The translations under genes were made by a program, and so were the position numbers. The notes below the pieces were generated by a model, which was given only the letters and a program-made list of their open reading frames with translations, did no database searches and was not told where the DNA came from. A DNA stretch of 64,000 nt from Saprospiraceae bacterium (GTDB lineage Bacteria; Bacteroidota; Bacteroidia; Chitinophagales; Saprospiraceae), in assembly GCA_020631355.1 (NCBI GenBank), contig JAHDHL010000002.1, positions 69,703-133,702 of the forward strand, written 5' to 3'. Of the stretch, positions 48,432 to 57,385 are shown piece by piece. Numbering within the stretch: the first letter of the stretch is position 1; each line of letters begins with the position of its first letter.

Positions 48432-49445
48432 TTAGGGTCTTTTGATATACTCATTCAAGTCATCAATAGATGAATCGAACTGGAATGCATCATTCACCAT
48501 GTAATAATTCTTCTTATCTGTTACTCTATTGTATGCATATTGTGCAAATTCCAAACGAGTGCTTTCATGAACAAAAATCTTCATGATATCCCTCACCTGC
48601 TCGGATGAAAGGCAGTTCGCATCGGAAACCTGCTTGGATACTGTCAACTTATCTTCTTCGTGTACCTTGCTTGACACAGACTTTTTCACATTACCGAAAT
48701 CGTATCCGGACATTGCATAATAGCATTGACCGTCATCGACCACTGGTTCGGTATCAATACCCATATCCATGTCCATATCGACATCCATGTCTACATCCAT
48801 ACCAGTCGTTGTAGTAGTGGTGGTAGTGGTAGTGGTCACAGTAGTCGAAGATGAGATATCATCATCAATCCTAACATCTGTATCCATGTTACCATCCATA
48901 TCCACATTGACATCCATATCCACATCAATTCCACCCATATTCACATCAATACTGATTTCATCCCTATCCACATCCCCCTTGGAAGTGGAAGTCGTCGTGG
49001 TTGTTTCCGTAACGGAAATGGAAGTACTGGTTTCTATTCTAGGAGTGGTTGTGTATTCCACAGTAGTTGTTTCTGCAGGTGCAGGAGGAGCACTTGCAAT
49101 GGGAATTGCAGAGTAGAACTTCAACTTGAATCTTCCTTTCTTATCCTGCTTGATGACGTAGGTTACCTCTGCATTGGTACCATCGGCATCCATCACCATC
49201 ATATGTTTCTTTTCCAATGGTTCAATGGTCGCTTCCTTAAAAAGGATTTTAGTAGAATAGTATGGTTGAGTCAATCCTTCCACCCTGATATTCGTTTCAG
49301 GCTCTGCATTTTGTTGTACACCATTAAGGATAAGATGGAAAGGATGTCCGTCTTCAGCAAATACTATAACAGTGGAAGTATTCTGTGCTTCAACAGTACA
49401 AAACAAACCTATTGTGAAAGCAAATAAGGTAAAAATGTTCTTCAT
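48432..49445 (-). CDS. Exported DUF4476 protein with Thr-rich and Asp/Met-rich repeats
   Basis: A 337-residue protein with a signal peptide (ending TVEAQ). Residues 22-115 form a beta domain (VIVFAEDGHPFHLILNGVQQ). Then come two threonine-rich tracts (ETTTVEYTTT..., an 11-13 Thr run near 205) and two Asp/Met/Val repeat tracts of the type DVDMDVNVDMDG and DVDMDVDMDMDM. The C-terminal DUF4476 domain (CLSSEQVRDIMKIFVHESTR, LEFAQYAYNRVTDKKNYYMV) is intact. The acidic Asp/Met stretches could bind divalent metal such as calcium or copper. A TATATTTG promoter box lies 68 bases upstream. Confidence 0.85.
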   Translation of the reverse strand: MKNIFTLFAFTIGLFCTVEAQNTSTVIVFAEDGHPFHLILNGVQQNAEPETNIRVEGLTQPYYSTKILFKEATIEPLEKKHMMVMDADGTNAEVTYVIKQDKKGRFKLKFYSAIPIASAPPAPAETTTVEYTTTPRIETSTSISVTETTTTTSTSKGDVDRDEISIDVNMGGIDVDMDVNVDMDGNMDTDVRIDDDISSSTTVTTTTTTTTTTTGMDVDMDVDMDMDMGIDTEPVVDDGQCYYAMSGYDFGNVKKSVSSKVHEEDKLTVSKQVSDANCLSSEQVRDIMKIFVHESTRLEFAQYAYNRVTDKKNYYMVNDAFQFDSSIDDLNEYIKRP

Positions 49446-49520: not shown

Positions 49521-49654
49521 ACTGATATGTTCGGTTTCAGGACGTTATGATTATCATAAACTTGCTTTCAAAAATTTAATTATTTCATAATTCGAGTGAC
49601 CACTTTGTTCTTCTGCCCTAGAATATCCCTTGAGAATCGTGTATATTGAATGAT

Positions 49655-50377
49655 ATGAGTTACAACCAAATTTTCGAGGGTTTATCCGAAAGGGCCCAAC
49701 ACTTGCTTCAGAAGGAGGAGGGAAGTGATATGGATTTCAAAAGGAGTGTCAGTAGTTTCAAATCCGATGATTTGGTCGCATTTGCCAATTCTGAAACAGG
49801 AGGAACCCTGATGTTGGGGATTGATGAGGCAACAGATGAAAGGGGTCGCCAATACGGAAAGATTGTCGGTTGTAAGATTGATGACGAAGCCAAGATGACT
49901 ATCCTGAATCGGGCTAATAGCTGTATTCCACCCATAGATGTGGAAATCTATGTGGAAAATGATGGGGACATTCCATTTTATAGGGTGGAAATTCCATCAG
50001 GTAAGAACAAACCGTACTGTACATCAGGGGGAACCTATAAAATCAGGGACGATGGACAAAATAGGACATTAGACCCTACCCTACTCCTTGAGTTGTTCCT
50101 ACAACAGGAAAACAACACGTTCTCCAATCGTTTTCAATCCGTTACTACCCAATTGGACACCTTGCTCAAGGTGACCCACAATTTGGTGCATCATCATCGT
50201 AAGGATTTGGAGAAGGAAATGAAAAAAATCAAGCAGAAAGTATTGAATATTTCGGAAGAAGCAAAGGGTGCTACCAAAATTTCAATGGATGCCTCTAGGT
50301 ATTCCGAAGAAAATCATAAGCTATTATTGGAACTTGTAGCGGAGGTGAAAGCATTGAAGAATAAAAAACAAGCATGA
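49655..50377 (+). CDS. AlbA_2 (Schlafen-type) domain protein
   Basis: A 240-residue protein, start ATG 49655 (an in-frame TTG lies 9 bases upstream). Residues about 20-140 are the AlbA_2 domain: EEGSDMDFKRSV, DDLVAFANSETGGTLMLGID, RVEIPSGKNKPYCTSGGTYK and IRDDGQNRTLD. AlbA_2 is found in Schlafen-like RNases, helicases and transcription regulators. The rest (about 150-240) is a coiled coil (KDLEKEMKKIKQKVLNISEE). There is no helicase, so it probably works as a binding or oligomerising partner. It overlaps the DUF434 fusion gene by 4 bases (ATGA), so the two are translationally coupled. Confidence 0.85.
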   Translation: MSYNQIFEGLSERAQHLLQKEEGSDMDFKRSVSSFKSDDLVAFANSETGGTLMLGIDEATDERGRQYGKIVGCKIDDEAKMTILNRANSCIPPIDVEIYVENDGDIPFYRVEIPSGKNKPYCTSGGTYKIRDDGQNRTLDPTLLLELFLQQENNTFSNRFQSVTTQLDTLLKVTHNLVHHHRKDLEKEMKKIKQKVLNISEEAKGATKISMDASRYSEENHKLLLELVAEVKALKNKKQA

Positions 50378-51450
50378 GGAATCGAGGACAAGCTCCCAAC
50401 GATCATCAATTATTCAATCCCAAATCCCAACTGGTGTACTATGAGGCCATCAGGGATATGTCATATCTACTCAGTAGGGGCTATGGCCCTAAATCTAGTT
50501 TGCAAATCGTAGGAAATCGATATCGGTTGAATGCTCGTCAGCAAAAAGCCCTACTTGGAATGTCAGCATCCGATACTGCTGTCAAAATGAGGAAAGACAA
50601 GGAGGTCCGAGCCCATGAACTAAGAGGAAAAAAAGTCTGCATTGATGGATTCAATCTTTTGATTATCCTTGAAAGTGCGATTTCGGGTGCTTTCCTTTTC
50701 AAGGGGATGGATGGAGCTTACAGGGACGTAACTTCCGTGCATGGTGGCTACAAACGGGTCAAGCAGACGGAAGAAGCCATTATTCTTATCGGAAAGATAC
50801 TGAATGAATTGGGCGTGAGTGAAGCGACTTGGTACTTGGATGCTCCCATTTCAAATAGTGGTCGGTTGAAAACATTCCTTAGGGAAATAGCAGTACGAGA
50901 ACGATTCAATTGGACATTCGAATTGGTGAATAATCCCGATAAGGAATTAGCGGAAGGTGATGATATCATCATCAGTTCTGATGCCTGGGTCATCGAGGAG
51001 GGGAAACTCTGGTTCAATATGATGGGATACCTCATCAAGCATCATTTACAGGATGTGGAAATCATTTATTCCCAAGCCCGGAAACGCATTGCCCTCGTAA
51101 CTTGTGTCAAGGAAAAGGCGGATTCCTCCTGTGCAGCCAAGGATTTATATCAGGGCCAACTATTCAATCAATTCATGCAGGAGGCTCACGACCAGAATGC
51201 GGACGAAATATACATCCTTTCAGGGAAACATGGTCTTTTGGAATTGGAGGACATCATTGCTCCATATGATTTGAATCTGAATGAACAAAGTAGTGCTTTT
51301 GTCATGGATTGGTCCCGTCAAGTATTGACAGCCTTGGACAAAAGAACGAACTTGGATAATGATCATTTTATTTTCATTACCAATCCTACATATCGTCAAT
51401 TTCTTGTTCCTGAGGTAAGGCATTATTCGGTGCCTTTGGATATTAGCTAA
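50374..51450 (+). CDS. DUF434-DUF5616 fused to DUF6884-like domain
   Basis: A 358-residue protein. Residues 1-75 are DUF434 (NRGQAPNDHQLFNPKSQLVY, DMSYLLSRGYGPKSSLQIVG). Residues 80-235 are DUF5616 with a pattern like a PIN/NYN nuclease fold: CIDGFNLLI (D91), WYLDAPISNSGRLK (D156) and ISSDAWVIE (D203). Residues 236-358 resemble DUF6884 (LVTCVKEKADSSCAAKDLYQ, ILSGKHGLLELEDIIAPYD), a domain related to enzymes that act on bases or nucleotides. The fusion of the two is unusual. Context: coupled to the AlbA_2 gene before it, and followed 25 bases later by an outer-membrane protein. An RNA-acting, stress- or defence-related role is inference. Confidence 0.75.
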   Translation: MRNRGQAPNDHQLFNPKSQLVYYEAIRDMSYLLSRGYGPKSSLQIVGNRYRLNARQQKALLGMSASDTAVKMRKDKEVRAHELRGKKVCIDGFNLLIILESAISGAFLFKGMDGAYRDVTSVHGGYKRVKQTEEAIILIGKILNELGVSEATWYLDAPISNSGRLKTFLREIAVRERFNWTFELVNNPDKELAEGDDIIISSDAWVIEEGKLWFNMMGYLIKHHLQDVEIIYSQARKRIALVTCVKEKADSSCAAKDLYQGQLFNQFMQEAHDQNADEIYILSGKHGLLELEDIIAPYDLNLNEQSSAFVMDWSRQVLTALDKRTNLDNDHFIFITNPTYRQFLVPEVRHYSVPLDIS

Positions 51451-51475
51451 GCGATTTCATCTAATCGAATCAACT

Positions 51476-52237
51476 ATGGAAAGAACAATACTCATGCTAG
51501 TCCTCTTATTTCCCGTGCTTGTCTTTGCACAGGAAGAAGAACAGGTTTATGAAACAGATGAGTCTGAAAAACTCAACGCATATTTTGTGGAATCCAGTCT
51601 GCATTTTTCAATGGGGCTACCCATCAACCAATCCAAAGGGAGTATGGAAAGCGGATTTGGTCTGGGTTTGAATGCATTGCTGGGAAAAGATGGATTCCCT
51701 TTAAGTGGAGGGTTCGATTTCGGTTTCCATTGGCATAGCCAAGTCAATGCAGATGCTTATTTCTGGAATGGGTACTTTGATGAGTTGCATGATTTGAAAA
51801 CCACCAGTTATAGTATTACGGGAGATATCCTAATTCGGGGTGAACCCGACCTTGACTTTCCCGTCCGACCTTATGCGGACCTTTTTATCGGATTCAACCG
51901 ATTGGTCACCTGGTCTTCCATAGAGGGCGATAGTGATTACGAGGATGATCCGGATTTGGATAATTTCGATGAGACCTATAGAGAACAGGGGGACTGGACC
52001 CGCGCTTATGGTGCAGCTGTAGGATGCAAGATTTCAGTATACGAATCCGAATATCCGGATGAGCCCAAGGTTTATGTAAATCTAAGGGTCGCATACAGAA
52101 AAGGCGGAGCTGCTACCTATCTGGCCCGAATGGATGATTATACCATTATAGACAATACTGTAGAAGCCTACGAAGAACGACGTTCGCCTACGGATATGCT
52201 CATGATTCAATTGGGTGTGAATATTAAAATTCAATAG
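51476..52237 (+). CDS. Outer-membrane beta-barrel-like protein
   Basis: A 253-residue protein with a signal peptide (ILMLVLLFPVLVFAQEE). Repeated amphipathic strands (FVESSLHFSMGLPINQSKG, GFPLSGGFDFGFHWHSQVNA, RPYADLFIGFNRLVTWSSIE, KVYVNLRVAYRKGGAATYLA) end in LMIQLGVNIKIQ, typical of small outer-membrane barrels. An acidic loop (EGDSDYEDDPDLDNFDE) lies near residues 145-162. No specific family recognised. It is 25 bases after the DUF434 fusion and 31 bases before the nucleotidyltransferase gene, so it is probably in the same transcript, though functionally it may be a passenger. Confidence 0.75.
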   Translation: MERTILMLVLLFPVLVFAQEEEQVYETDESEKLNAYFVESSLHFSMGLPINQSKGSMESGFGLGLNALLGKDGFPLSGGFDFGFHWHSQVNADAYFWNGYFDELHDLKTTSYSITGDILIRGEPDLDFPVRPYADLFIGFNRLVTWSSIEGDSDYEDDPDLDNFDETYREQGDWTRAYGAAVGCKISVYESEYPDEPKVYVNLRVAYRKGGAATYLARMDDYTIIDNTVEAYEERRSPTDMLMIQLGVNIKIQ

Positions 52238-52268
52238 AATGCCCCATCAACTAAAAAATTAAATACTC

Positions 52269-53081
52269 ATGGAACAGCGAATCAAAAAAACAGGGAGTGT
52301 ACAACCCTTATCCGAGGAAGGATATGTCATCAACAACCTATCTCTCCAACTCATCCAACCAGAATATCAGGCTGTCATTGATGATACCCTTGCATTCTAT
52401 CATAAGTATTTCGGGGAACGTACACATAGTATTTATCTTAGGGGAAGTGTGGCCAAGGGAATGGCAATCCCATATATTTCCGATTTGGATACAATAGCTA
52501 TCTCACATGTTACAATCCCGAAAAAGGAACTCTATGAAAAAGAATTTTTCTGGATTGAAATGAAACAGAAACATCCGTTCCTGAATGGAGTGGAAGTTCA
52601 TTTTGAAACCATGGAACAACTGGAATCATCCGAGAGGCTCCAATTCCTACTCAAGACACAGTGCATTTGCATCCATGGAGAGGATGTCAGGCCGGAACTC
52701 CCCGAATTCGGATTAGGTACTTGGGCCTATGCCCATTCCAATCATATTCAAGATGGTATTGACCAAGTAAGAAAATGGTTGGATGAGGAAGAAAATAATG
52801 AGGAGGAATACAAGGAAATTTGTTGCTGGATTATGAAACGTACCGTCAGGATTGGGTTTGAATTGATTATGGAAAAAGAACAATGCTTCACTCGGGATCT
52901 ATATCCTTGTTATGAACGTTTCATTAAACATTATCCTCAAAAAGCGAATGAAATGATGGCTGCATTGGAACTGGCTGTATTCCCTACATCAGATATGAAT
53001 CATATGTGGAATGTTCTGGATAATCTAACAGACTTCTTGATAACTGAAGCACAGAAACGCAATAAGGGGGTAGATGTATAG
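52269..53081 (+). CDS. MNT-type nucleotidyltransferase
   Basis: A 270-residue protein with the polymerase-beta-type nucleotidyltransferase motif GS-x11-DxD: YLRGSVAKGMAIPYISDLDT (G59, S60, D72, D74), followed by a likely third acidic residue in VEVHFETMEQ. The C-terminal half is helical (EICCWIMKRTVRIGFELIME) and could be a HEPN-like or substrate-binding bundle as in aminoglycoside adenylyltransferases. It may adenylylate a small molecule, RNA or protein. As the last gene of the AlbA_2/DUF434 run it could belong to that system. It ends 5 bases before a convergent lipoprotein gene. Confidence 0.82.
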   Translation: MEQRIKKTGSVQPLSEEGYVINNLSLQLIQPEYQAVIDDTLAFYHKYFGERTHSIYLRGSVAKGMAIPYISDLDTIAISHVTIPKKELYEKEFFWIEMKQKHPFLNGVEVHFETMEQLESSERLQFLLKTQCICIHGEDVRPELPEFGLGTWAYAHSNHIQDGIDQVRKWLDEEENNEEEYKEICCWIMKRTVRIGFELIMEKEQCFTRDLYPCYERFIKHYPQKANEMMAALELAVFPTSDMNHMWNVLDNLTDFLITEAQKRNKGVDV

Positions 53082-53086
53082 GCTTG

Positions 53087-53605
53087 TTAATCATCAATAT
53101 ACACAACGAATTCTCCATTAAAGGATTGCATACCACCCTCTAAAAGGCCATTTTCGAGTTCACCGGATATTTCACCAATGAGTTTTTCTCCCGTTTGGCC
53201 ATATTCGTGGATAGTGACTTGCATACTCCCATTACATCCCCATTCCGTGCAATCCATCGCCAATGTAGGATAGGCATCAGGAACCAAAGGATAATCCAAA
53301 TAATTGAAACTTAGCTGTTCGGCTTGGAATATCCCTAGCGCGGGTTCTTTCAATTCCAATATAAAATGTGTGTAGGTTCCTTCTTCAGGCCAAAGTGAAA
53401 TATGTAATCTGGACTCATCATCCGATATCTGATGTACAACCTCAATGTAATTATCCGAAGTATAGATTCGCTCGTTCCCATCCACTTTCATGAGTACATA
53501 TTCATCTAGTTCCAATGATGGTACAAAGCCGTCATTCCCAACGTCCTGACAAGATTGAATGAGTAAGAGTATCGGAATTAAAATGATTAATGGTATCTTC
53601 TTCAT
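53087..53605 (-). CDS. Small lipoprotein of unknown function
   Basis: A 172-residue lipoprotein. The ATG at 53605 (MKKIPLIILIPILLLIQSCQ) gives a lipobox IQSC; an in-frame TTG lies 6 bases upstream. The mature part is beta-rich (LDEYVLMKVDGNERIYTSDN, SFNYLDYPLVPDAYPTLAMD) with two cysteines (DCTEWGCNGS) that may form a disulfide. No family recognised. It is isolated, downstream of the two hairpin elements. Confidence 0.65.
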   Translation of the reverse strand: MKKIPLIILIPILLLIQSCQDVGNDGFVPSLELDEYVLMKVDGNERIYTSDNYIEVVHQISDDESRLHISLWPEEGTYTHFILELKEPALGIFQAEQLSFNYLDYPLVPDAYPTLAMDCTEWGCNGSMQVTIHEYGQTGEKLIGEISGELENGLLEGGMQSFNGEFVVYIDD

Positions 53606-53729
53606 AACCAACAGATTCTGGTATTTAATCCAAAATAACCAAATACTAGATGAATTAAAAATCCATTATATGGTTTCAATCCTTATGGTCTGACTGAAGT
53701 CAATTCTTTTGTTAGTAAGCATAACAAAA

Positions 53730-54043: not shown

Positions 54044-57000
54044 CTATCGAATCATCATTTTACCGATAGCCAATGGCTTTCCTTCTATGCTGATTTCATA
54101 GATGTACATCCCCTCATTCAGATTTCCCCTATGAAAACTGAATGTAGACGAATGAAAATATTGTTTGGATAATTCATGCCCCAATAAATCGAATACACGC
54201 AACTCCACTGTCTGATTCAATCCTTTCAATTCGAAGTGTATGGATTCCGAAAACGGATTGGGAAAAGCCCTGACGGATTGGATTTGGTACTGTTCGGCTA
54301 TATCGTCTATGAGATTCACTTCCACGAATTTCTCCCCTATCGTATGGAAAGTCGTATTGGTAAAAATGGGTGGATTGAAATCAAAGTAAATTCCAGCAGT
54401 ATTTTCTATGACTGTTCCTAGAGGCAAATCAGGTTGTTGGGAAATCTTAAATTTCACAAATCCATGAGAAGCAGGTTCGTTCGTAGTACTATCCACCAAA
54501 TAAATATCATTAAAGATGAACGCTACAGTATCGTTCTCCACTTCGAATACATAAGGATGGCTACTCACTCCAGGATTTATGGATAACAAATCCAAATCCG
54601 CTTGAATAACATCCTTGATTACTACCTTGAAAGCCGTATCGGTTCCGGTATTCTGGAACCGAATGAGATATTCGATATCCTGTCCCCTTTCTATATAATG
54701 TTCAGGGCCATAACCCGTAGGAAAGGCTTGCTTATCGTTGGGGTCATAGGAACCTGTCACTTCCCTGCATTCTATCGAAACGAAACCATCATTATCATCC
54801 TGTCCGAATTGGTTGTAAAGTCCCAAGCTGAATGCATCCGAGGGCCCACAGGCCTCCACTGTCGTACTCGGGCTACTACCTCCGGGATGACCGATAGCCT
54901 GTGCGGCTTCCAGTCTATATAAATTACCTGTAGCCTCGATGGCAAAATTGAATTCTCCACCAGATGGTAATTGGTAGTCATCCTGTAGGAATATCACTTG
55001 GTCTTCAATCACATAATAAGTTCTGGGGTTTAGCATATTCCCTACTCCGACATTCTGTATCCTAAACCGAATCGAATCACCAACGCATTCACTACTTACC
55101 AGCGTACTGGATCCGTCCCAGTTAGGGTCAGGAGTTCCACAAAAATCATCCGGATAAATGTGTGCATCGACACAATAGGTACGACCATAATATTCACCTG
55201 CAAAACCATCACAAGGCAATTGTATATCCACTTTGAAATCACCACAATCACCCACAGGTACCGTACCCAGATAAAAAGTATAAACATGATTCGTATCTGG
55301 TCCTGAGAATGGGACTTCAGAATTCTCAATGAATAAATCAGCATCCAATGTCAGTTCGATATAAGCATCATTCGCCTCAATGGTCCCCTGATTACAATAT
55401 TCAATATAGTAGTCATTGGATACACATTCCCGAAGTGCCCAAGTAGCAACATCGACTTCCAGCTGCGGGCACAATGTATTGACATCAAGAATAATGTCCT
55501 CTATTATGTCCGCATTTCCTATAGCTGTCAAATCGATATCAATGGAGCCACATGTCTCTGCATAGAACGACTCAGGATATACATTAATCTGATACAATCC
55601 TGTATCCACGAAAATCTCATAGGCCCCAGAAGCATCCGTTATGACAGAATAGATATTTTCAGAACTGATGAATTCAACCAGGGTTTGGGCTGCAACGGGT
55701 AAGGATTGACCATCCAGCTGACAGTCGGAATCATAATCAAAGTACACTTGTCCTCTGACAGTTTTTGAGTCTTGGCTACAAAAAGCTTCAATAATGGCTT
55801 CTGAGCTACATTCATTAGCATTAAAGTTGATAAAGGGAGTACCTAACAATCCGTTGGGGTCGGATAATAAATGTTGGATTCCGCAGCAGTCTACAAGGTT
55901 GGGATTATTGTCCAAATACAAATTCCCTCCAATGGATAGGATGTGCTCAAAATCATCCAGATGAAGCATATTATCACAAAAACGGAAGAATACATTACCT
56001 GGAATATATTCGATTCCATCGAGCATATCCAAGCTGGAAACCCCCAAATCATATATACCGAATTCATTCCCTATCGTATCCAATTGGGACAAACCGGAGA
56101 CATCCGTTAAGGAACCAATGGAAATCAGACTGAGGCTGCCATATATACTGGTTAGATTGGAGAAAACATCCAAATCCGTGATACCCATACTAGAAAATTC
56201 CAGATTATTCCCTATCGAAACCAATCCCGAAAGACTGGAAATATCAGTCAGGTTTCCCGAATTCAAAATCCTTAGATTACCCGGAATGACCGTTAATAAT
56301 TGGAATGCATCCAATGAGGACAACTCGGGATTCGCTGCTATACTAATCTCATCCCCTATGGACTGTAATTGGTGCAGACCATAAAGCGTACTTAGGCTAT
56401 CATTAAATCTGATACTAATACTTCCTTGTATCTCTGTGATATTCTGAAATCCTGAAATATCGAATAACATTAGATTCGGTTCGGCAACTGGTGTTCCTCC
56501 TGGATTGATTATGTCACCAATAATTAAATTTTCTGGAATAGTCGTTAGGTTGGGGAATGCATTTGCCATGATGTTGGTCAAATTGTCCATTCCCATTATA
56601 ATCAATGATTCACCTATGGAGTTAAGACTACTAAAACCGTCTATGTAAGACCATACACTATTGCTTATCTCCAGGCTTCCTCCTATGGAAATAACACTTG
56701 AGAATAAATAATTAGGTAGGTTTCCTTGATTACTAATAACCAGATTTCCCCCAATGCTGTCCAAGTTCGATAATTGCCCCTGAACAATCGCATTATCATT
56801 CTGAATAATAAAACTACCTCCAATGGTCGATAGCATCGGCATATCCAGAGCCGTGAAAGCTGCCATACTATCGAGAACGAAATCACCGTTGATTGTTATG
56901 ATACCAGAGAGGGGACTGATATCATTAATGGGGTCATCCAAACCACTATTGATTACGAGGTCGCCCAGTATCGTAGTAGTGGCGGGGTTAAAGGCATTCA

Positions 57001-57088
57001 CCTCGGATTGGGTATTAAGTTCCACATCCTGCGCAGATCCACTACTAAAAAGAAAAAATAAAAGAATAAGTGTGCTTATCAATCTCAT
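54044..57088 (-). CDS. Large secreted repeat protein with T9SS type A sorting domain
   Basis: A 1014-residue protein. The ATG at 57088 gives a clean signal peptide (MRLISTLILLFFLFSSGSAQ). Residues about 25-420 are receptor-L/leucine-rich-like repeats of 25-30 residues (LSGIITINGDFVLDSMAAFT, LSQLDTIGNEFGIYDLGVSS), closed by DCCGIQHLLSDP. A beta-sandwich domain (GQVYFDYDSDCQLDGQSLPV) follows, then a SYDPNDKQAFPTGYGPEHYI module with DUF11-like strands (IEYLIRFQNTGTDTAFKVVI). The last 75 residues are a complete T9SS sorting domain (VRAFPNPFSESIHFELKG to GKMMIR). Probably a cell-surface adhesin. The gene at 26026 is a decayed relative. Confidence 0.88.
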   Translation of the reverse strand: MRLISTLILLFFLFSSGSAQDVELNTQSEVNAFNPATTTILGDLVINSGLDDPINDISPLSGIITINGDFVLDSMAAFTALDMPMLSTIGGSFIIQNDNAIVQGQLSNLDSIGGNLVISNQGNLPNYLFSSVISIGGSLEISNSVWSYIDGFSSLNSIGESLIIMGMDNLTNIMANAFPNLTTIPENLIIGDIINPGGTPVAEPNLMLFDISGFQNITEIQGSISIRFNDSLSTLYGLHQLQSIGDEISIAANPELSSLDAFQLLTVIPGNLRILNSGNLTDISSLSGLVSIGNNLEFSSMGITDLDVFSNLTSIYGSLSLISIGSLTDVSGLSQLDTIGNEFGIYDLGVSSLDMLDGIEYIPGNVFFRFCDNMLHLDDFEHILSIGGNLYLDNNPNLVDCCGIQHLLSDPNGLLGTPFINFNANECSSEAIIEAFCSQDSKTVRGQVYFDYDSDCQLDGQSLPVAAQTLVEFISSENIYSVITDASGAYEIFVDTGLYQINVYPESFYAETCGSIDIDLTAIGNADIIEDIILDVNTLCPQLEVDVATWALRECVSNDYYIEYCNQGTIEANDAYIELTLDADLFIENSEVPFSGPDTNHVYTFYLGTVPVGDCGDFKVDIQLPCDGFAGEYYGRTYCVDAHIYPDDFCGTPDPNWDGSSTLVSSECVGDSIRFRIQNVGVGNMLNPRTYYVIEDQVIFLQDDYQLPSGGEFNFAIEATGNLYRLEAAQAIGHPGGSSPSTTVEACGPSDAFSLGLYNQFGQDDNDGFVSIECREVTGSYDPNDKQAFPTGYGPEHYIERGQDIEYLIRFQNTGTDTAFKVVIKDVIQADLDLLSINPGVSSHPYVFEVENDTVAFIFNDIYLVDSTTNEPASHGFVKFKISQQPDLPLGTVIENTAGIYFDFNPPIFTNTTFHTIGEKFVEVNLIDDIAEQYQIQSVRAFPNPFSESIHFELKGLNQTVELRVFDLLGHELSKQYFHSSTFSFHRGNLNEGMYIYEISIEGKPLAIGKMMIR

Positions 57089-57385
57089 GCTTAGGTCTGA
57101 TTGCATTAATAATTAATACACTTGCTAGTTGTTTTTAATCAAAATTTTAAGGTAATACTCTGCATGTCATCTACATAATAGATTCATTCAAGACGAATCT
57201 GGCAGATGTGGGAACTAGTGTATGTGATTTAAACATTCAACAATCCAAAGATGGGACTTCTTGGACCTTACCCAAAGTACAGATTCTATTAATTATCACA
57301 AAAAATTTAAACAAAACAACATTAACTACCTATTTATCATATATTTACAATAAATAAAATCACAAAAATAATTTACTACTAGACG

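Follow-up and report, generated by a model that had tools for sequence, protein, structure and literature searches.

A Schlafen-type AlbA_2 gene and a DUF434-DUF5616-DUF6884 fusion gene form a pair in one genus of Saprospiraceae: predicted nuclease fold and possible role in nucleic acid processing

The window analyzed here is a stretch of 64,000 nt of contig JAHDHL010000002.1 (assembly GCA_020631355.1) from a Saprospiraceae bacterium; coordinates given without a locus designation are positions in this window. It contains a gene for an AlbA_2 (Schlafen-type) protein, which is followed directly by a gene encoding a DUF434-DUF5616-DUF6884 fusion. The two appear to form a real, lineage-limited pair that displays a new domain arrangement, and we infer that the pair is vertically inherited. 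The best reading of the whole, which is tentative and falls a little short of an even chance, is that the pair acts in the processing or repair of nucleic acids and that RNA is its likeliest substrate.

The open reading frames of the window place four genes on one strand (Table 1), as the original prediction had it. The AlbA_2 and fusion genes overlap by 4 bases and the next intergenic gaps are 25 and 31 bases; an alternative TTG start for the first open reading frame is possible at position 49646. Scans of the gene set give 9 promoter-like sites where 10.7 are expected and 6 terminator-like sites where 3.3 are expected, none of the latter being located between genes of the set.

Conservation of the pair was followed in nine genomes of the genus (the window genome, G000, together with G033 and G120–G126), several of which are 72–91% complete so that absences are soft. 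The AlbA_2 gene is present in seven of the nine and is located directly before the fusion gene in six, where the spacing is −4 (G000), 2 (G126), 3 (G121), 12 (G120), 15 (G122) and 73 bases (G033). The fusion gene is whole in G000, G121, G120 and G033. In G126 a frame change accompanied by unknown bases disrupts it, and in G122 it holds a stretch of unknown bases. G124 has a DUF434-DUF5616 gene and a DUF6884 gene on separate contigs, G125 has DUF434-DUF5616 only, with no DUF6884 fusion, and G123 shows no match to the fusion protein. The pairing of AlbA_2 with the fusion, which had been proposed from the window alone, is thus seen as a closely spaced arrangement in six genomes.

The proposal that all four genes make up one system did not survive this comparison and is rejected, since the outer-membrane-like and nucleotidyltransferase genes do not accompany the pair in genus relatives; only AlbA_2 and the fusion stay together. 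Relatives of the outer-membrane-like gene, whose product has no Pfam family, occur in 5/9 genus genomes. In G122 one opposite-strand gene separates the relative from the fusion, G120 carries its relative on another contig, and the relative in G123 is weaker. In G125 (L202 2296–3800) the AlbA_2 gene is followed directly by the outer-membrane-like gene and the fusion is absent, which suggests that these two genes can pair without the fusion. Relatives of the nucleotidyltransferase are found in 30 of 199 family genomes. The relative in G121 is on a different contig from the fusion, and there is none at the other five pair loci of the genus. The best match outside the genus is in G071, a genome with no DUF5616 match. 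The nucleotidyltransferase reaches 21.2 bits against NTP_transf_2 (PF01909), barely over the cut-off of 21, and the GS-x11-DxD motif attributed to it is present from residue 59. Its identification as an RlaP-type RNA-repair enzyme was considered and rejected: there is no RlaP (PF10127) Pfam match up to an expectation value (E) of 1, and phmmer gives an E of 0.22 to the RlaP of locus L160.

Genes that surround the pair recur in the genus. Relatives of the convergent lipoprotein-like gene adjoin the fusion in G126 (L087) and G122 (L088) and are one gene off in G121 (L085); two more are present in L203 (G120). A gene that we read as amidase-like is upstream of the pair in four genomes (G033, G121, G120 and G122), and three of these, G033, G121 and G120, also have a thioredoxin-like gene there. 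Because these neighbors recur, the pair appears to belong to an inherited stretch of chromosome, in which the outer-membrane-like and nucleotidyltransferase genes sit between the pair and the lipoprotein gene in the window genome. The upstream genes differ among G000, the group of G033, G121, G120 and G122, and G126. Directly after the fusion in G033 there is a RidA-family gene (L028 1602–1991; Pfam Ribonuc_L-PSP, 3.3e-27), and an annotated RidA gene adjoins a DUF434 gene on a Hymenobacter volaticus plasmid (L173 7805–8197); these are the two RidA cases.

The domain names of the original prediction are confirmed by Pfam with matches far beyond chance. DUF5616 is found in the fusion with an E-value of 2.7e-50, and the DUF6884 match (Table 1) scores 106.5 bits against a cut-off of 30. 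An AlphaFold model of the fusion, built from a 12-row alignment, has a mean predicted local distance difference test score (pLDDT) of 85.8 and a predicted template modeling score of 0.79. The top Foldseek match of the model is FEN-1 (4wa8, probability 1.00, E-value 7.7e-3). In VIA-align, which is a second look at the Foldseek candidates and no independent search, residues 67–225 of the predicted model align with FEN1 chain 9rci_B over 126 residues (Z 11.6, root mean square deviation 3.0), and FEN1, XPG, GEN1, Rad2 or Pol1 chains fill 19 of the top 20 rows, with Z values of 7.3–11.6. A sequence search of solved structures with the fusion profile gave no match.

Residues in the nuclease-like region are strictly conserved when counted on distinct sequences, of which there are up to 54. 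D91, N94, E100, D113, D118, D156 and N161 are invariant in 54/54, and D189 and D203 are invariant in 53/53. D91, D156 and D203, the aspartates that had been singled out as a PIN-like pattern, are therefore present and invariant, and the predicted fold is PIN/FEN-like. D91, D156, D189 and D203 are candidate metal ligands. The order of “strand-Asp-Gly”, then “strand-Asp” and “Ser-Asp”, is reminiscent of FEN/PIN metal sites.

The C-terminal part of the fusion is related to a different group of proteins. Residues 235–354 of the model align with E. coli YaaA (5caj_A) over 111 residues (Z 8.3, root mean square deviation 3.0), and a YaaA-like predicted fold agrees with the suggested link to base- or nucleotide-acting enzymes. 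There is also a YaaA Pfam match, which is weak (2.6e-4) and below the family cut-off. The DUF6884 part displays the motifs C244-x3-K248 and L282-S283-G284, and both C244 and K248 are invariant in the alignment used. As given in excerpts of the Pfam update (PMC11701544), DUF6884 has CxxxK and LSAxxG motifs and similarity to YaaA, and occurs alone or with other domains; according to the same excerpts the DUF6884 protein YfjM of B. subtilis interacts with abasic and RNA-base lesions and is modeled as flipping a nucleotide, and YaaA binds DNA and belongs to the oxidative stress response. An excerpt of another paper names DUF6884 as dpdC.

The AlbA_2 protein matches SLFN_AlbA_2 at residues 22–139 (E-value 4.4e-16, 59.9 bits against a cut-off of 25.3) and probably has a helical C-terminal tail. 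Its matches to solved chains are weak, with E-values of 0.04–0.44, and the chains are named RecG-related, SAMD9 and SLFN11. SLFN13 is described in the part of PMC5862951 consulted as a tRNA- and rRNA-cutting RNase with the triad E205/E210/D248. In four AlbA_2 orthologs there is no variation at E22 and D27, which are spaced like E205/E210, or at D57; the match to SLFN chains is weak. Outside the genus, orthologs of 52–56% identity are found in G005, G099 and G115. G005 and G099 carry both the AlbA_2 ortholog and DUF5616 and G115 carries AlbA_2 only, numbers that are too few to judge co-occurrence.

The full-length fusion has been seen in this genus only. Among 396 genomes drawn from the order it occurs in one, the window's own genome, and 48 match the fusion protein somewhere; the others cover all or part of DUF434-DUF5616 or of DUF6884. 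DUF5616 is present in 27 of 120 family genomes, as two fusions (G000 and G033), 24 separate genes and one broken gene (G091). In the draw from the phylum it is present in 17 of 395 genomes, and the 15 DUF5616 genomes outside the family have no fusion. It extends to archaea: M. jannaschii, S. acidocaldarius and M. acetivorans, which served as named control genomes, have it as well. Stand-alone DUF434-DUF5616 proteins have about 39–56% identity to the first 220–230 residues of the fusion. Of the 120 family genomes, 93 have a DUF6884 match; it exceeds 100 bits in 6, and in most of the 93 it is weak (<40 bits) and looks like YaaA. The partial literature covered yielded no paper on DUF434, DUF5616, COG2454, PF04256 or PF18481.

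Evidence on possible function comes from the neighbors of the separate DUF434-DUF5616 gene. Fifteen such loci outside the family, from the phylum draw, were each read over about 11 kb. RNA-repair genes are near the separate gene at 6/15 of these loci and in 0/40 control stretches of like length, which were taken at hand-chosen, not random, places in 14 of these 15 genomes (Fisher p 1.7e-4). The genes are a PNKP ligase, a PNKP kinase-phosphatase and RlaP at L157, RtcB and TROVE at L158 and L162, RlaP and a T4 Rnl2-like ligase at L159 and L160, and a T4 Rnl1-like ligase with PNK at L166. In the Flavobacteriaceae, the separate gene of Aquimarina sediminis is flanked by RtcB on one side and by a WYL regulator gene on the other. 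In Leptobacterium flavescens KptA, itself preceded by an ADP-ribosylglycohydrolase gene, ends at the base before the start of the DUF434 gene. KptA is present in 13/17 genomes with DUF5616 and in 34/378 others of the phylum draw; counted by genus the values are 4/7 and 16/164 (p 0.004). The window genome has KptA on another contig.

Other observations concern the same separate genes. A family of proteins 215–242 amino acids long follows DUF434-DUF5616 at nine loci, as the next gene in L157, L161, L163, L165, L166 and L169 and as the second gene in L159, L160 and L101. Two members scanned singly (L166 and L157) have no Pfam match, and the family is a candidate for a further partner of the predicted nuclease. 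On plasmid pTS2 of Treponema saccharophilum (L174 7001–7699) a DUF5616 gene is near immunity-protein and leucine-rich-repeat genes.

The likeliest substrate of the pair would be RNA, broken or modified, and perhaps tRNA, given that some Flavobacteriaceae-like relatives have RNA-repair genes around their separate DUF434-DUF5616 gene. The DUF434-DUF5616 part of the fusion may act as a metal-dependent nuclease with a FEN1/PIN fold. The YaaA-like DUF6884 part most likely would hold a damaged or modified end or base, and this hold on the substrate would let the nuclease act only there. AlbA_2, translated together with the fusion, may serve as a Schlafen-type RNA-binding or RNA-cutting partner and could form a physical complex with it. 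A bolder form of the proposal, which is distinctly unlikely, is that DUF434-DUF5616 is an undescribed FEN1-like RNA-repair nuclease which here would be fused to a YaaA-like damage-recognizing domain and linked with a Schlafen-type RNase; together they would make up a self-contained surveillance module for tRNA or RNA damage that cuts damaged ends for repair or destruction.

Several observations weigh against RNA processing by the pair. The six RNA-repair loci come from two genera of one family and represent few independent events, and the queries for the count were themselves taken from such loci, with control places chosen by hand. RNA-repair genes are absent at the other 9/15 drawn loci, at the Echinicola, Flammeovirga, Hymenobacter and Treponema loci, at all 25 separate-gene loci of Saprospiraceae and all 5 fusion loci outside the window, and in the window itself. 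DUF5616 was not found within 1.5 kb at any of 30 KptA loci, and the adjacency in Leptobacterium may for this reason be chance. With regard to structure, Foldseek gives nothing at E ≤ 0.001 for the fusion model, and hhalign finds no match between DUF5616 and 30 PolA 5′-nuclease stretches (probability 0.4), a comparison that covers the PolA branch only. The AlbA_2 model has a pLDDT of 42.9, too low for fold comparison, and the orthologs of G005, G099 and G115 are not beside DUF5616. Three points are in the direction of DNA: FEN1 acts on DNA flaps, DUF6884 is tied to DNA lesions in the excerpts of PMC11701544, and a gene that we read as RecQ-like helicase adjoins a separate gene on the opposite strand (L045 5723–7948) and clusters with a neighbor at L052.

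DNA-lesion repair is the first alternative. The DUF6884 part would recognize a damaged base or a ribonucleotide in DNA, the FEN1-like part would remove a flap or nicked end, and AlbA_2 would only bind nucleic acid. FEN1, XPG and GEN1 are the closest folds to the predicted nuclease, the lesion interactions of YfjM and DNA binding by YaaA (excerpts of PMC11701544) are in accord, and to the RecQ-like gene may be added TatD, a DNase family, which is the commonest neighbor family of the separate gene (5/130 neighbors). In Saprospiraceae the neighbors of the separate gene fall into clusters of up to five loci which are mostly ordinary genes, one being the RecQ-like gene. The RNA-repair neighbors at the six drawn loci, in Aquimarina and in Leptobacterium argue against this explanation, which is somewhat unlikely.

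It is also conceivable, and unlikely, that the set is a chance or merely co-transcribed one, in which AlbA_2 would act on its own as a regulator or an RNA-binding protein and the fusion would be a housekeeping enzyme in its own right. The AlbA_2 orthologs that lie apart from DUF5616 would fit, as would G125, in which AlbA_2 adjoins the outer-membrane-like gene, and G033 with its gap of 73 bases and its RidA-family gene. Against this, the gene order is kept in 6/9 genus genomes, five of them with a spacing of 15 bases or less, despite differing upstream genes.

A role in defense against phage had been part of the original prediction. The 49 other proteins of the window match three PADLOC families, each weakly and by one protein (best E-value 3.2e-9), and no Dpd model that could indicate partner genes is among the three. 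The best NCBIfam matches of the same 49 proteins (best 25 of 188 families) are core functions such as ATP synthase, pyruvate kinase, dihydroorotase and sulfate permease. Location in a defense island is rejected on these grounds and on the chromosomal neighbors common to several genus relatives. Three viral-contig scans contain no relatives of the fusion, AlbA_2 or DUF6884. The pair is confined to one genus, which is one of the findings that the prediction had named as evidence against itself, and the window shows no defense system near it. Of its suggestion of RNA or tRNA processing under stress or phage attack, the RNA part fits the RNA-repair genes that certain relatives have around the separate gene, and the phage part is not sustained. 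Cleavage of RNA or tRNA by AlbA_2 and the fusion upon infection, as an anti-phage or abortive infection system, is quite unlikely: among PADLOC families the DUF6884 part does match the candidate PDC-M57A (1.4e-35) and has a weak match to DpdC (7.3e-7), its relatives are found in 14 phage records and also in plasmids, and SLFN13 cuts tRNA and rRNA (part of PMC5862951), but the best matches of the other window proteins are core functions, several genus relatives have chromosomal neighbors in common, the full fusion is limited to one genus, the viral-contig scans are empty, and four separate DUF6884 genes of Saprospiraceae adjoin genes that we read as ordinary.

Table 1. Features of the pair and its surroundings in the window.
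Feature	Position	Strand	Basis and remarks
AlbA_2 (Schlafen-type) gene, 240 amino acids	49655..50377	+	Pfam SLFN_AlbA_2; first gene of pair
DUF434-DUF5616-DUF6884 fusion gene, 358 amino acids	50374..51450	+	Pfam; second gene of pair; start overlaps AlbA_2 stop by 4 bases
DUF434 domain, residues 24–76	50443..50601	+	Pfam 9.4e-18; helical in model
FEN1/PIN-like nuclease fold (predicted), residues 67–225, mainly DUF5616	50572..51048	+	Structure comparison of model
DUF6884 domain, residues 239–350, YaaA-like fold (predicted)	51088..51423	+	Pfam 1.5e-30; structure comparison
Outer-membrane-like gene, 253 amino acids	51476..52237	+	No family; probably a loose neighbor
Nucleotidyltransferase gene, 270 amino acids	52269..53081	+	PF01909, 21.2 bits; probably outside the pair
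Lipoprotein-like gene, convergent	53087..53611	-	Context, outside the module; relatives near the fusion in several genus genomes

Two further genes flank this region. A DUF4476 protein with a Thr/Asp-rich, low-complexity middle is encoded at 48432–49445, divergent from the AlbA_2 gene. The 1020 amino acid protein encoded at 54044–57106 has receptor-L-type repeats and DUF7619; its C-terminal sorting-domain Pfam match falls just below the cut-off.

The FEN1-like predicted fold together with the RNA-repair neighbors provides a first testable function for DUF5616, and the fusion links DUF5616 to the YaaA/DUF6884 domain. The Schlafen partner, if true, would tie bacterial AlbA_2 proteins to nucleic acid damage responses.

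Comparison with known systems shows both shared and distinct properties. The predicted fold of residues 67–225 is like that of the FEN1/XPG/GEN1 5′-nucleases of the PIN-like superfamily, and its invariant acidic residues may correspond to their metal site; unlike these, the fusion has no sequence-profile match to the PolA 5′-nuclease and carries a YaaA-like domain. Residues 235–354 resemble E. coli YaaA and B. subtilis YfjM in predicted fold and in the CxxxK motif, with LSG in the fusion where those have LSA, however the domain is here joined to a nuclease fold. Stand-alone DUF434-DUF5616 proteins have the same two domains as the fusion but are without DUF6884, no AlbA_2 neighbor was seen beside them, and some are located among RNA-repair genes in Flavobacteriaceae-like genomes. 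The AlbA_2 protein is like the Schlafen/AlbA_2 nucleases SLFN13 and PUCH in its Pfam domain, with weak sequence matches. Unlike those proteins, it consists of a single small domain and a tail, and its partner is a FEN-like fusion.

The pair also differs from known gene sets. It recalls the bacterial RNA-repair sets (PNKP/RtcB/RNA ligase/RlaP/KptA) in that a separate DUF434-DUF5616 gene adjoins such genes at some loci, whereas the fusion has none of them nearby, either in the window or at five genus loci. It is unlike the Dpd system of 7-deazapurine DNA modification, to which it has only the weak DpdC match, with no Dpd partner matched among the 49 other window proteins in the PADLOC scan. Unlike anti-phage defense islands, the pair has no defense system near it in the window, and is found among chromosomal neighbors that are common to several genus relatives.

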